Assembly: GCF_001483135.1 (NCBI RefSeq)
Contig: NZ_LNAL01000008.1
Span: 1,178,001-1,242,000, forward strand
From: Solirubrum puertoriconensis
GTDB lineage: Bacteria > Bacteroidota > Bacteroidia > Cytophagales > Hymenobacteraceae
Direction: 5' to 3'
Length of the DNA: 64,000 nt
Shown: positions 394-59,359 of the stretch, in pieces
Numbering within the stretch: position 1 is the first letter of the stretch
Layout of the letters: the number at the start of each line of letters is the position of its first letter
The notes under the pieces: generated by a model
Told to the model about the DNA's origin: nothing
The model's input: the letters and a program-made list of their open reading frames with translations, nothing else
Database searches by the model: none
Program-made: the position numbers and the translations under genes

Positions 394-1127
394 GCGAGCT
401 GGCCTAGGTCGAGCACCGCGCCGGGCTGCAGGGCATGAATGCGCACATCGGCTTCGGCTGATAAGTGCGCTTGCAGTTGCTCGGGCGTGCCTTTCAGGGC
501 GGGGTAGGTGCCGTAGTGGAAAGGCACTACGTGGCGCACCTGCAGCAGGCGTGCAGCGCAGGCCGCCTCCAACGGGCCCATGGTGTACTGGTCGCCGATG
601 GGCAGCAGCGCCACGGTGGGTTGGTACAGCTCGGCCAGCAGGCGCATGTCGCCAAACACGGCTGTGTCGCCGGCGGCGTACACCACCGCGCCATCAGAGA
701 AACGCAGGATAAAACCTACGCCCTCGTGCGGGAAGCCGGCCGTGCCATCGGGCAAATCGATGTGGGCGCTGTGGAAAGCCAGCGTCATGGTGATGCGCAC
801 GCCTAGCACCTCAATTGAGCCGCCTTTGTTCATGGGCTCGAACTGCGCAGTGGGCACGCCTTGGCTGTAAAGGTAAAAGCGCACTTGCGGCTGGGCGATG
901 CAGCGGGCACCGGTGCGGGCCAGCAGCTCGGCTAGATTCGCGTCGAAGTGGTCGTCGTGGCCGTGGGTGACCAGCACCAAGTCGGCCTGCTCGGGCTGCC
1001 ACAGGTGCTCGGGCACGAATGGGTTGTTGGTAAACCACGGGTCGATGAGAATAACGCGGCCCTCAGGCGAGGTGAGGCGAAAGGCCGCGTGGCCCAGAAA
1101 CTGCAGCTGCGTGCTGGCGTTTGGCAT
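390..1127 (-). CDS. Metal-dependent hydrolase, MBL fold (UPF0173-like)
   Basis: A 245-residue cytoplasmic metallo-beta-lactamase-fold hydrolase. The metal-binding signature HGHDDH is at about residues 55-60 (HxHxDH). It is preceded by LIDPWFTNNP, and followed by AGDTAVFGDM, which supplies an Asp ligand, and FHYGTYPAL, which supplies the last His. This set matches the UPF0173 / YtkL-like family, whose substrate is unknown. The start at MPNASTQLQF is chosen because the conserved fold begins there (FLGHAAFRL); the frame stays open upstream but that part has no family resemblance. It converges on the histidine kinase with a 4-base overlap. A CCTAGG motif lies at 403-408 inside the gene. Confidence 0.85.
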   Translation of the reverse strand: MPNASTQLQFLGHAAFRLTSPEGRVILIDPWFTNNPFVPEHLWQPEQADLVLVTHGHDDHFDANLAELLARTGARCIAQPQVRFYLYSQGVPTAQFEPMNKGGSIEVLGVRITMTLAFHSAHIDLPDGTAGFPHEGVGFILRFSDGAVVYAAGDTAVFGDMRLLAELYQPTVALLPIGDQYTMGPLEAACAARLLQVRHVVPFHYGTYPALKGTPEQLQAHLSAEADVRIHALQPGAVLDLGQLA

Positions 1128-1286
1128 GTGGTGAGGTGCTGGTTGGGGCCGCAAAATAGCGGGTTGGCAGCCTGGGACAGCTAATGACTTGCTGCCCCAC
1201 TGCCAACCTAGCCGATGGGTTTGCGTAGGCCTAGCCCAACCAATCGCACCGGGTACCAACCCCGAAGCCTTCCTTACGCTTACCGC

Positions 1287-1709
1287 ATGCAATCAGCCCC
1301 CGCCACCCTGCGCGTTTATTTCGAAAATGCTTCGGGCCGCGTAGCCGAGCACCCCGAAGGTTTTGCGGTGGTTACCTGGTACAAAGGCACGCGGCAGCTC
1401 GACGACTTCAGGGCGGTGCTTAACCACCTCGACCGCCTGCTGCGCCTGCGCAACGGGAGCAAGCTGCTGGCCGATCAGCGGCTGATGACGCCCTTTACGC
1501 CCGCCGAGAGTAACTGGGTGGTAGAAGACTGGCTGCCCAGGGCCGTGGGCGAAGGGCCCTACCGCTACGCCGCCGTGCTGCTGCCGCTCGATGTGTTTGC
1601 TCGGCTTTCAACCAAAAACGTGCTGTCGGAGTCGCAGGAGAAGTTTCTGGCCTACCAGTTTTGTGCCGATGAGGCGGAAGCCGCGCAGTGGCTGCGGCAG
1701 CTACCGTAG
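1287..1709 (+). CDS. Hypothetical protein (STAS/SpoIIAA-like, common type in Hymenobacteraceae)
   Basis: A 140-residue soluble protein without signal peptide or membrane segment. The N-terminus (LRVYFENASGRVAEHP) reads as beta-strands, followed by FAVVTWYKGTRQLDDFRAVLN and a Leu-rich helix LDRLLRLRNG. This resembles small STAS-like proteins seen in cytophagal genomes, but no catalytic motif is visible, so the function is unknown. The ATG at 1287 is preferred over an upstream TTG-started extension. It is divergent from the MBL hydrolase and converges on the SnoaL-like gene with a gap of 4 bases. Confidence 0.6.
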   Translation: MQSAPATLRVYFENASGRVAEHPEGFAVVTWYKGTRQLDDFRAVLNHLDRLLRLRNGSKLLADQRLMTPFTPAESNWVVEDWLPRAVGEGPYRYAAVLLPLDVFARLSTKNVLSESQEKFLAYQFCADEAEAAQWLRQLP

Positions 1710-1713
1710 CCAA

Positions 1714-57900: not shown

Positions 57901-57963
57901 GTCGATGTAAGTGCCTTCCCGAACACGCGCCGCATGTTCTTCCACGTAGCCGTTGAGTTCTAA
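54949..57963 (+). CDS. SusC/RagA family TonB-linked outer-membrane protein (pair 4)
   Basis: A 1004-residue transporter, the smallest of the five. Signal peptide to AVAQ, carboxypeptidase-like domain ([22 protein letters not shown]), [23 protein letters not shown], plug ([64 protein letters not shown]), barrel ending in VAVEF. The first 70 residues are close to those of SusC5. ATG 54949 is used; an in-frame GTG two codons upstream is possible. 19 bases separate it from SusD4. Confidence 0.95.
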   Translation: [1004 protein letters not shown]

Positions 57964-57982
57964 CGCTGACCCCCTCCATTCT

Positions 57983-59359
57983 ATGAAATACATTGTTCTT
58001 ACTCTCCGTAGCCTAGGGTTTGCTGCGCTAGTACTATCGGCCTCTTCCTGTGCTTTCTTCGAAGTTGATGATGTTCAGGATCCGAATAACCCCGACGCAG
58101 CTGCTTTTCAGAGCAATCCTAGCTTAGCGCAAATCCAAGCCTTGGCTTCGGGTACCGAGGCATCCTTGCGCCTCGGCTACCAAGGCCAAGGTCCTTACCT
58201 GAACGTAACGGGTACTTTCGGGCGCGAAGTGGTGGTGCTGGCTACCAACGAATCGCGTTGGTATACCGAACTACTAGGTACCCGCGACCAAGACAACGCC
58301 GCCTTCTACAACTCGGCCTACCCAGATTTTGCTCGGGCGCGCCGCGTAGCTCAAATTCTACGGCAATCAGCTGCCACCGCCGCTGTGCTTTCCGATCAGC
58401 AGAAGCAAGCTGTGAACGGCTATGCTCACACCATGGAGGCTTTGGCGCAGTTGTACATTCTGAACCTACAGGGTGAAAATGGCATCCGCACCGATGTAGA
58501 AGACCCGCTGAATCCAGGACCATTCGTGAGCTATGAGGAAGGGCTGAATTTTATTACTCAGCTTTTGAACCAAGCTTCTACCGAGCTAGCTGCCGGTGGT
58601 GCTGCTTTCCCGTTCAAGTTCACGACGGGTGGGTTCACTGGCTTTGATACACCAGAGACCTTCAACCGGTTTAACCGAGCCATTGCTACTCGCGTGGCCG
58701 TGTACCGCCGCGATTGGGCTACCGCGCGGACATTGCTTGGGCAGTCGTTCTACAGCGAAACGGGTGACTTGACACTAGGTCCGAAAATCACCTACACGCC
58801 TGGGCAGCCACTCGACACCGGTAACCCGTACTTCCAAGCGCTGAATGCTAACCCGGCCACGCTGGTTACGGTGCAGCGCTCCATTCTTCAGGATACTTTA
58901 AAGCTGACTACAACTGGCCGTGATGCCCGTGTTCGAGCCAAAATTGGTCGTCGTACCACTCCTCGCAGCCTAGGTGGCATTACAGGTGCTTACCAACCAC
59001 GGGTGTACTCATCCAATACGACACCCATTCCAATTATTCGAAATGAGGAGCTGATTCTGATAGCAGCCGAAGTCAACATCCAGCAGAGCAACTTGCCCGA
59101 GGCTGTACGATTGCTGAATATCATTCGCACGCGTTCCGGGAATATTGGGCCTTACACTGGAGCCGTTACGCAAGCCGCGCTAATTGATGAACTATTGCTG
59201 CAGCGCGAGTTCTCGTTGTTCTATGAAGGACATCGGTGGATAGACTACCGGCGTTATAACCGGCTTAACCAATTGGATTTAGAGTTGCCGACGCACAGGA
59301 TATTTTCGGCAATGTTGCGCCCGTTTGCTGAGGTGGCTTGGGACGCCGCCAACCCGTAA
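57983..59359 (+). CDS. SusD/RagB family outer-membrane lipoprotein (pair 4)
   Basis: A 458-residue lipoprotein. N-terminus MKYIVLTLRSLGFAALVLSASSC, with lipobox SASSC at about 19-23, then AFFEVDDVQDPNNPDAAAF. Landmarks: HTMEALAQLYILNLQGENGIRTDV, FNRFNRAIATRVAVYRRDWATA, EELILIAAEVNIQQSNLPEAVRLLNIIRTRSG, ending in LQREFSLFYEGHRWIDYRRYNRL and a C-terminal AWDAANP. A shorter member than SusD1-3. The start at 57983 is fixed by the signal peptide. Confidence 0.93.
   Translation: MKYIVLTLRSLGFAALVLSASSCAFFEVDDVQDPNNPDAAAFQSNPSLAQIQALASGTEASLRLGYQGQGPYLNVTGTFGREVVVLATNESRWYTELLGTRDQDNAAFYNSAYPDFARARRVAQILRQSAATAAVLSDQQKQAVNGYAHTMEALAQLYILNLQGENGIRTDVEDPLNPGPFVSYEEGLNFITQLLNQASTELAAGGAAFPFKFTTGGFTGFDTPETFNRFNRAIATRVAVYRRDWATARTLLGQSFYSETGDLTLGPKITYTPGQPLDTGNPYFQALNANPATLVTVQRSILQDTLKLTTTGRDARVRAKIGRRTTPRSLGGITGAYQPRVYSSNTTPIPIIRNEELILIAAEVNIQQSNLPEAVRLLNIIRTRSGNIGPYTGAVTQAALIDELLLQREFSLFYEGHRWIDYRRYNRLNQLDLELPTHRIFSAMLRPFAEVAWDAANP

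Follow-up and report, generated by a model that had tools for sequence, protein, structure and literature searches.

CCTAGG in a 64-kb window of Solirubrum puertoriconensis

The window analysed here, a 64,000-nucleotide stretch of Solirubrum puertoriconensis (contig NZ_LNAL01000008.1, positions 1,178,001 to 1,242,000), carries among others the genes for methylmalonyl-CoA mutase, DnaA, a GH3-family protein, 1-deoxy-D-xylulose 5-phosphate reductoisomerase (dxr), Lon and a short-chain dehydrogenase, and throughout it recurs the short DNA word that is our subject, CCTAGG. A hand count in the initial annotation of this DNA had given about 79 copies, and an exact search returned 79, the first at 403 and the last at 58969-58974. 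Chance would supply far fewer. Markov models of orders 0-3 predicted 11.4-19.6 copies, and dinucleotide shuffles of the window gave 13.8 ± 3.3, with a maximum of 23 among 100 shuffles; a maximal-order Markov null (63.8 expected) was set aside as unfair, because the subwords of CCTAGG are themselves inflated. As had been claimed, most copies (69/79) have A before or T after them: CCTAGGT occurs 38 times on the plus strand and 28 times on the minus strand, three copies form ACCTAGGT and 10 have neither flank. The earlier observation is therefore confirmed, and the effect is bigger than claimed.

According to our own simple gene calls, 62/79 sites are genic and 17/79 intergenic. The Leu-Gly reading ascribed to the genic copies held for 59/62, which are read C-CTA-GG; the other three are read CCT-AGG (Pro-Arg), and none places TAG in frame. 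The dnaA copy, CCTAGGT at 17808-17814 (plus strand), is read Gly-Leu-Gly in what had been annotated as the P-loop, whereas that of the GH3-family gene (22017-22023, plus) is read CCT-AGG. The methylmalonyl-CoA mutase gene has CCTAGGT on the minus strand at 10715-10721. Two genes named by Pfam, dxr and lon, contain three sites each and not two as first reported. Those of dxr, all CCTAGGT on the plus strand, lie at 26503-26509 (Leu-Gly) and as a pair at 27301-27341, whose second member is the Pro-Arg copy that had been noted there; those of lon start at 33671, 33695 and 34313 (33671-34319, plus). The counts of five sites in a putative porQ (35111-35881, plus; gene 35088-36146, named in the initial annotation and without a Pfam match) and of two in the short-chain dehydrogenase gene (38266-38595, plus) were reproduced. 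Between genes, two direct CCTAGGT copies are separated by 16 bases (6913-6935, plus), and two sites in inverted orientation, with 33 bases between them, span 2222-2260. The inverted repeat around this last pair reaches about 15 bases by eye and could be a terminator. A further intergenic CCTAGGT (38142-38148, plus) lies within CCCTAGGT and is retained in two word-rich genomes of the same genus, G004 and G007.

Presence and absence of the word among relatives

The excess extends to the whole genome (G000; 4,804,721 bases), in which a count proposed with the initial annotation gave 6,212 copies of CCTAGG (1.29/kb) versus 136 of the reversed word. Eight genomes belong to the same GTDB genus (g1). 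G004 (5,678) and G007 (5,325) are about as rich as G000, and the other five, the low relatives, have 123-249 copies. Hymenobacter sp. CRA2, the nearest named low relative (DnaA identity 91%), has 0 copies across 21.6 kb around dnaA. In a DnaA tree, two badly translated rows, G001 and G002, were disregarded. Family-wide, CCTAGGT was counted on both strands, so that the palindromic ACCTAGGT is taken twice; the sum is 5,096-8,746 in 8/204 genomes and at most 666 in the rest. Five of these eight carriers, H. setariae probably among them, belong to another genus (g4).

Six non-carriers (G110, G079, G175, G156, G099 and G174) have 446-666 copies of CCTAGGT versus fewer than 400 in the remaining ones, and are perhaps decaying or incipient carriers. 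Word-rich genomes of g1 measure 4.2-4.8 Mb and word-poor ones 4.9-6.3 Mb. The biggest genomes of genus g6, taken as Pontibacter by inference, are likewise word-poor, and the g4 carriers (5.6-7.5 Mb) depart from this size trend.

Probable selection on the DNA word

CTA is not used equally before other codons, and neither this test nor the genome count, both named in the initial annotation as possible refutations, went against the observation. CTA accounts for 68% of Leu codons in the context C_GG and 6.7% elsewhere in G000, and in the low relatives for only 1.6% in C_GG and 2.7% in other contexts. (Word counts for low relatives, here and below, come from samples of four of the five such genomes in g1, 308 kb in all.) Within-gene shuffling of synonymous codons left 47.3 ± 7.3 copies in a 464-kb sample of G000 that has 413 coding copies, and 32.5 ± 5.1 in a 420-kb sample of G007 that has 322. 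Reading frames in the larger samples were those seen in the window, with 291 Leu-Gly and 29 Pro-Arg among 320 copies in G000 (364 kb) and 292 and 30 among 322 in G007 (420 kb). About a third of the Leu-Gly pairs of G000 (291/851) are spelt CCTAGG. Since copies exceed the synonymous shuffles and the use of CTA is bound to its context, the CCTAGG word itself is favoured. That selection, as the initial annotation had suggested, or drive acts on the DNA word has strong support from the synonymous excess, codon use and the on/off pattern among relatives. CCTAGG is a favoured, lineage-specific word, from whose properties we infer a function below.

An assembly or basecalling artefact might be suspected, as the carrier assemblies G000, G004 and G007 are long-read-like, with 8, 4 and 3 contigs, and the low genomes have about 10-50. 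Miscalls, however, would ignore the reading frame, and among the 642 coding sites sampled from two genomes, 583 are C-CTA-GG, 59 are CCT-AGG and none is in the TAG frame (although a gene call would likewise stop at a TAG in frame). The carrier G074, in about 150 contigs, has the word as well. An artefact therefore has practically no chance of being the cause.

An asymmetric word in the genus of the window

The two flanking bases exclude each other. Exactly one of A-before and T-after is present in 483/523 sites of G007 and 372/446 of G000; both occur in 12 and 20 sites (123 and 95 under independence) and neither in 28 and 54. In sites oriented so that the T comes last, the base preceding the core follows the preference C > G > T > A, and G and C are weakly preferred after the T. 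The word in g1 is an asymmetric, non-palindromic [C>G>T]CCTAGGT, with CCTAGG as its core. Past about 2-3 bases the flanks are near background, and a larger repeat element was discarded as its source. Restriction sites are usually avoided in genomes. The site of the type II enzyme AvrII is the identical hexamer, CCTAGG; here, by contrast, it is enriched, and its flanking T is nearly core-constant in G007.

Origin of the sites by point substitution

In four low relatives that align with the window at about 80% identity, the sites face many different words (e.g., GCTGGGC, GCCCAGG, CCGCGG, CATCGGC), and 20 sites aligned with CRA2 differ at one to four of the six places, transversions among them. 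Judged from these alignments, CCTAGG arose by point substitutions and not by insertion. The dnaA site at 17808 reads GGCTGGGC in the four aligned low relatives, GCCTAGGT in G004 and H. setariae and GCCTAGGC in G007; the methylmalonyl-CoA mutase site at 10715 reads GCCCAGGG in the four aligned low relatives and ACCTAGGG in H. setariae. The dxr site at 26503 reads TGCTGGGC in low relatives and TCCTAGGT in G004 and G007. Neither site of the dxr pair at 27301-27341 is present in G004 or G007; in G003, a low relative, the first of them reads CCCTAGGC. The GH3-family site at 22017 faces CCG-CGG, also Pro-Arg, in the four aligned low relatives, and the change is therefore synonymous in the Pro-Arg frame too. 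Residues were unchanged in the cases inspected, which were not a systematic count (dnaA Leu-Gly, GH3-family Pro-Arg), with exceptions such as site 21182, which faces Leu-Asp codons in low relatives.

H. setariae has CCTAGG at 4/9 aligned window sites. The word is borne by 34% of Leu-Gly pairs in G000, 26% in G007 and 39% in H. setariae; with 26-39% of such pairs carrying it, independent gain at Leu-Gly pairs is enough to account for this overlap, and shared ancestry of the H. setariae sites was not retained as an explanation.

Sites not kept in G007 often lie one transition away from the word, 9 of 16 reading CCCAGG or CCTGGG, as would be expected of a Vsr-like mutational or repair bias that turned neighbouring words into CCTAGG without selection. 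Such a bias is nevertheless very improbable, given the multiple differences from CRA2, transversions included. Furthermore, one-step neighbours, with a few exceptions, are not generally depleted in carriers (ratios 0.4 to 9.7), flanks beyond the core changed too, and most small contigs are unaffected (see below).

Distribution between chromosome and small contigs

Density is 1.9 and 2.3/kb between genes and 1.1 and 1.0/kb within genes, convergent intergenic gaps being richest (2.8 and 3.5/kb) and divergent ones poorest (1.1 and 1.7/kb). In the window, 48 sites fall in the 37.0 kb of coding DNA that aligns with low relatives (1.30/kb) and 14 in the 17.3 kb of other coding DNA (0.81/kb).

Stretches taken elsewhere were samples of the genomes, and those of G161 and G074 included almost no large contig. 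Small contigs were mostly poor in the word: 9 copies in 120 kb on C2 and C3 of G007, 2 in 54.9 kb on C2-C4 of G004, 3 in 32.5 kb on C4 and C5 of G000, 15 in 66.4 kb on C4-C6 of G161 and 4 in 40 kb on C76 and C83 of G074. By comparison, the larger contigs of G000 have 1.15-1.60/kb and the chromosome samples of G007 and G004 have 1.25 and 1.40/kb. Contig C4 of G000 (12.5 kb) is a plasmid, as its genes for a Rep3 initiator and for a conjugation coupling protein show; the other word-poor small contigs are presumed to be plasmids. Island-like 20-kb samples of the chromosome with only 4 sites were found once among 15 in G000 (C8:700001-720000) and once among 21 in G007 (C1:3000001-3020000). Gaps in the word could serve to locate recent acquisitions.

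Dialects in the Hymenobacteraceae

Over-represented words were counted in the dnaA regions of 44 relatives, mostly of about 21 kb and some shorter. Other iterated words were found: AAGTATAA and AGGTATAG in Pontibacter, AACTATAG in P. populi and AATATT in Adhaeribacter. Hymenobacter sp. CA2-7 and BT559 have an excess of GCTAGCC (about 1.5/kb), a possible further dialect. At 37 Cytophagales loci outside the Hymenobacteraceae no comparably strong word was found. A search of the 204 genomes for ARGTATAR on both strands gave 3,822-10,385 copies in 35/50 g6 genomes (controls, 349-656), 731-3,220 in the remaining 15 and at most 1,523 in the 154 non-g6 genomes. Five Pontibacter samples showed a coding excess of about 6.5-10 fold over synonymous shuffles, in both orientations and in every frame except one orientation-and-frame in P. 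populi. Two Pontibacter stretches, in G013 (0.65/kb) and on C20 of G016 (0.2/kb), are poor in the word versus 1.75-3.55/kb elsewhere in those genomes, and may represent an island and a plasmid.

The preference at each position, worked out from single-base variants, revealed a common layout, namely A, two dialect bases, TA, two dialect bases and a last base at which T is rare (2-8%). It takes the form A-CC-TA-GG-(G,C) in Hymenobacter g1, and A-GG-TA-TA-(G,C,A), A-AG-TA-TA-(A,C,G) and A-AC-TA-TA-(G,A,C) in Pontibacter. TA stands at the centre of all the words found, that of Adhaeribacter being looser. The carrier G068 departs from the layout with ACCTAGGT (53 copies) and a second word, ACCTAGCT (41 copies), in 80 kb, and its pattern is therefore the palindromic ASCTAGST. 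The likeness of layout between Hymenobacter and Pontibacter words, judged without a formal test, is suggestive. Within this set of highly iterated, TA-centred Hymenobacteraceae words, CCTAGG is the form belonging to one lineage. Among the literature matches listed (titles and beginnings of abstracts), none described an iterated word, CCTAGG or other, from either Hymenobacter or Pontibacter; PMC7035346 was the one paper among them with both Hymenobacter and CCTAGG.

Orientation, spacing and a possible chromosomal function

A role as a replication signal, raised in the initial annotation, found no echo in orientation. The two orientations are nearly equal in the genome (2,962 vs 2,861), and for the 483 oriented sites of G007 the top replichore split of 88 rotations was 54.0%, i.e., no skew above chance. 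The corresponding excess of 39 (88 rotations) compares with a mean maximum of 37.7 and a 95% point of 61 for random orientations (22 rotations). A repair or recombination signal is still conceivable. Spacing is near-Poisson (coefficients of variation 0.95 and 1.04), with slightly too few close pairs.

Both this spacing and the mostly chromosomal distribution would suit the main rival to the explanation that we prefer below, in which a putative protein of the nucleoid, of segregation or of recombination binds the word as a Chi-like or architectural motif, and weak selection holds each site much as it maintains codon bias. Sites of G000 are also kept in its sisters at 86% identity (30/46 in G007, 34/43 in G004) above the average for all hexamers (47% and 45%), but not above some frequent ones. 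Chi and KOPS share several traits with the word described here: they too are short and asymmetric, occur in excess on the chromosome and vary between species. Words of the Chi and KOPS type, however, are strand-biased with replication, whereas our word has no replication-strand bias and reaches about 9-10 times its synonymous-shuffle count. An on/off pattern inside one genus, together with a change of dialect, would moreover be odd for a core chromosomal function. We regard a motif of this kind as unlikely, though a serious contender.

Methyltransferases and the HIP1 analogy

The analogy with the highly iterated palindrome HIP1 of cyanobacteria, drawn in the initial annotation, fits in part: the word is iterated but, being asymmetric in g1, is not a palindrome there. 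A HIP1-type word would be tied to an orphan DNA methyltransferase and built by methyl-directed mismatch repair, as Elhai proposed for cyanobacteria. In the available text of two sources, HIP1 and alternate HIPs are iterated at about 1/kb and swapped for another word in some relatives (PMC4390886; PMC6604393). The portion available of the first, a cyanobacterial survey, gives a similar density, a sporadic occurrence and words that differ between genomes; it reports that each genome with a highly over-represented word has one or more putative methyltransferases that could act on that word, and also names genomes with HIP1 but without a CGATCG enzyme (PMC4390886). Flank asymmetry is weaker in H. 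setariae and G142, and the words of H. setariae and G068 are nearer palindromes.

The proposed check for a cognate methyltransferase had a mixed outcome. PF02384 was found in 7/8 carriers, but none of PF01555, PF00145, PF02384 and PF02086 was present in every carrier examined. PF02384 is missing from G000 and present in 5/5 low genomes of g1, and PF02086 was found in 0/8 carriers. PF01555 and PF00145 were searched in G000, G004, G007 and H. setariae only; G004 lacks both and G000 lacks PF00145. The sole match of G000 in the four families is one PF01555 gene, located on the Rep3 plasmid contig. A common methyltransferase was consequently set aside as the determinant with respect to these four families, others such as Eco57I or MT-A70 being possible but not searched. 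The methylation analogy is weak because no searched family is common to all carriers examined. In addition, a repair bias should mark resident plasmids also, yet most small contigs are poor, and the words of g1 and Pontibacter are asymmetric, unlike HIP1. Altogether, this origin of the word is improbable.

A proposed self-recognition of chromosomal DNA

These properties suggest a lineage-specific self-recognition signal, possibly for DNA uptake. By comparison with known systems, the pattern appears most to resemble the DNA uptake sequence (DUS) dialects of the Neisseriaceae, a parallel that is unproven. DUS and uptake signal sequences (USS) are, like our word, asymmetric, present on both strands at about 1/kb, interrupted at islands and not obvious in some relatives. 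Neisseria DUS occur once per 400-1,100 bp, with gaps at islands, in the available text of PMC7371117, and word density in our carriers is about one per 0.4-0.9 kb. Neisseriaceae dialects keep a fixed CTG core, as stated in the part available of PMC3630211; DUS dialects fix CTG and the A at +10, and those of the Hymenobacteraceae fix TA and usually the first A.

Our preferred explanation, held tentatively, is that the word lets the cell recognise its own chromosomal DNA, most probably during uptake. Selection or drive would have spread the word across the chromosome through point substitutions, and a sequence-reading protein would recognise chromosomal DNA as self. A candidate DNA-uptake receptor may favour word-bearing fragments from kin, which then recombine. 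Because such fragments would be preferentially taken up and recombined, the word would build up in the chromosome and not in plasmids or islands, and the dialect could drift with the receptor, as in Neisseriaceae DUS. Further points in its favour are the balanced use of both strands, the word-poor small contigs and island-like stretches, the higher density in conserved coding DNA and in convergent gaps, and the dialects and on/off pattern among relatives.

Several observations weigh against this explanation. DUS terminators consist of inverted close pairs, and no clear excess of inverted pairs within 80 bases was seen in G007 (16 inverted, 13 same-way) or G000 (10 and 4). ComP, the DUS receptor, is a type IV pilin. 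The receptor proposed for USS is a type IV pilin as well in the available text of PMC12616744, and that of PMC3868556 names ComP as the DUS receptor. In a set of 46 genomes that held four of the eight CCTAGG carriers, the T2SSE ATPase (PilB/PilT/GspE, PF00437) was above cut-off in 0/46, with weak matches below it in 19/46. ComEC, the inner-membrane DNA channel, was found in 46/46, carriers and non-carriers alike; its presence speaks for uptake, but it explains nothing of the on/off pattern, since low genomes have it too. The word also differs from DUS and USS in length (8 vs 10-12 bases) and in being sporadic, with 8/128 carriers within g1 and g4. In G068 it is mostly the palindrome ACCTAGGT (53/89 sites). 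Two small contigs are rich, namely C2 of G000 (89 kb; 25 copies in 20 kb, 1.25/kb) and C4 of G142 (78.5 kb; 38 in 38.5 kb, 0.99/kb), which might be plasmids or parts of the chromosome. Some other hexamers equal or surpass CCTAGG in retention between sisters: GCCGGC (23/35) and GCCCAG (15/19) in G007, CGGCCG (26/35) in G004. Conservation alone is therefore weak evidence of selection, and we did not use it as proof. Finally, no report of natural competence in Hymenobacter or Pontibacter was among the literature matches listed.

For the family as a whole, a more speculative proposal is that species recognise self by dialect through A-xx-TA-yy-V, which would govern uptake without type IV pili and involve a new class of receptor. 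No established uptake sequence was found for Bacteroidota in the literature searched. The available part of one study describes a naturally competent member, Riemerella columbina, that prefers its own DNA and for which only A/T-rich words are listed there as candidates (PMC7965970). Words at about 1/kb with dialects in sister lineages are linked to gene-exchange barriers in Neisseriaceae and are unexplained in cyanobacteria. The Hymenobacteraceae provide an independent case, on and off within one genus and with dialects next door, which lets the cause be mapped by the gene content of carriers and non-carriers. If CCTAGG were a true uptake word, Bacteroidota would have machinery for sequence-specific transformation that lacks the usual pilus and, with it, a DUS-like system of sexual isolation.

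One other word differs in abundance between these genomes. In a contrast that may merely reflect avoidance in the low relatives (7/308 kb), CTCGAG is about 12 times commoner in G000 (103/364 kb) and G007 (115/420 kb).

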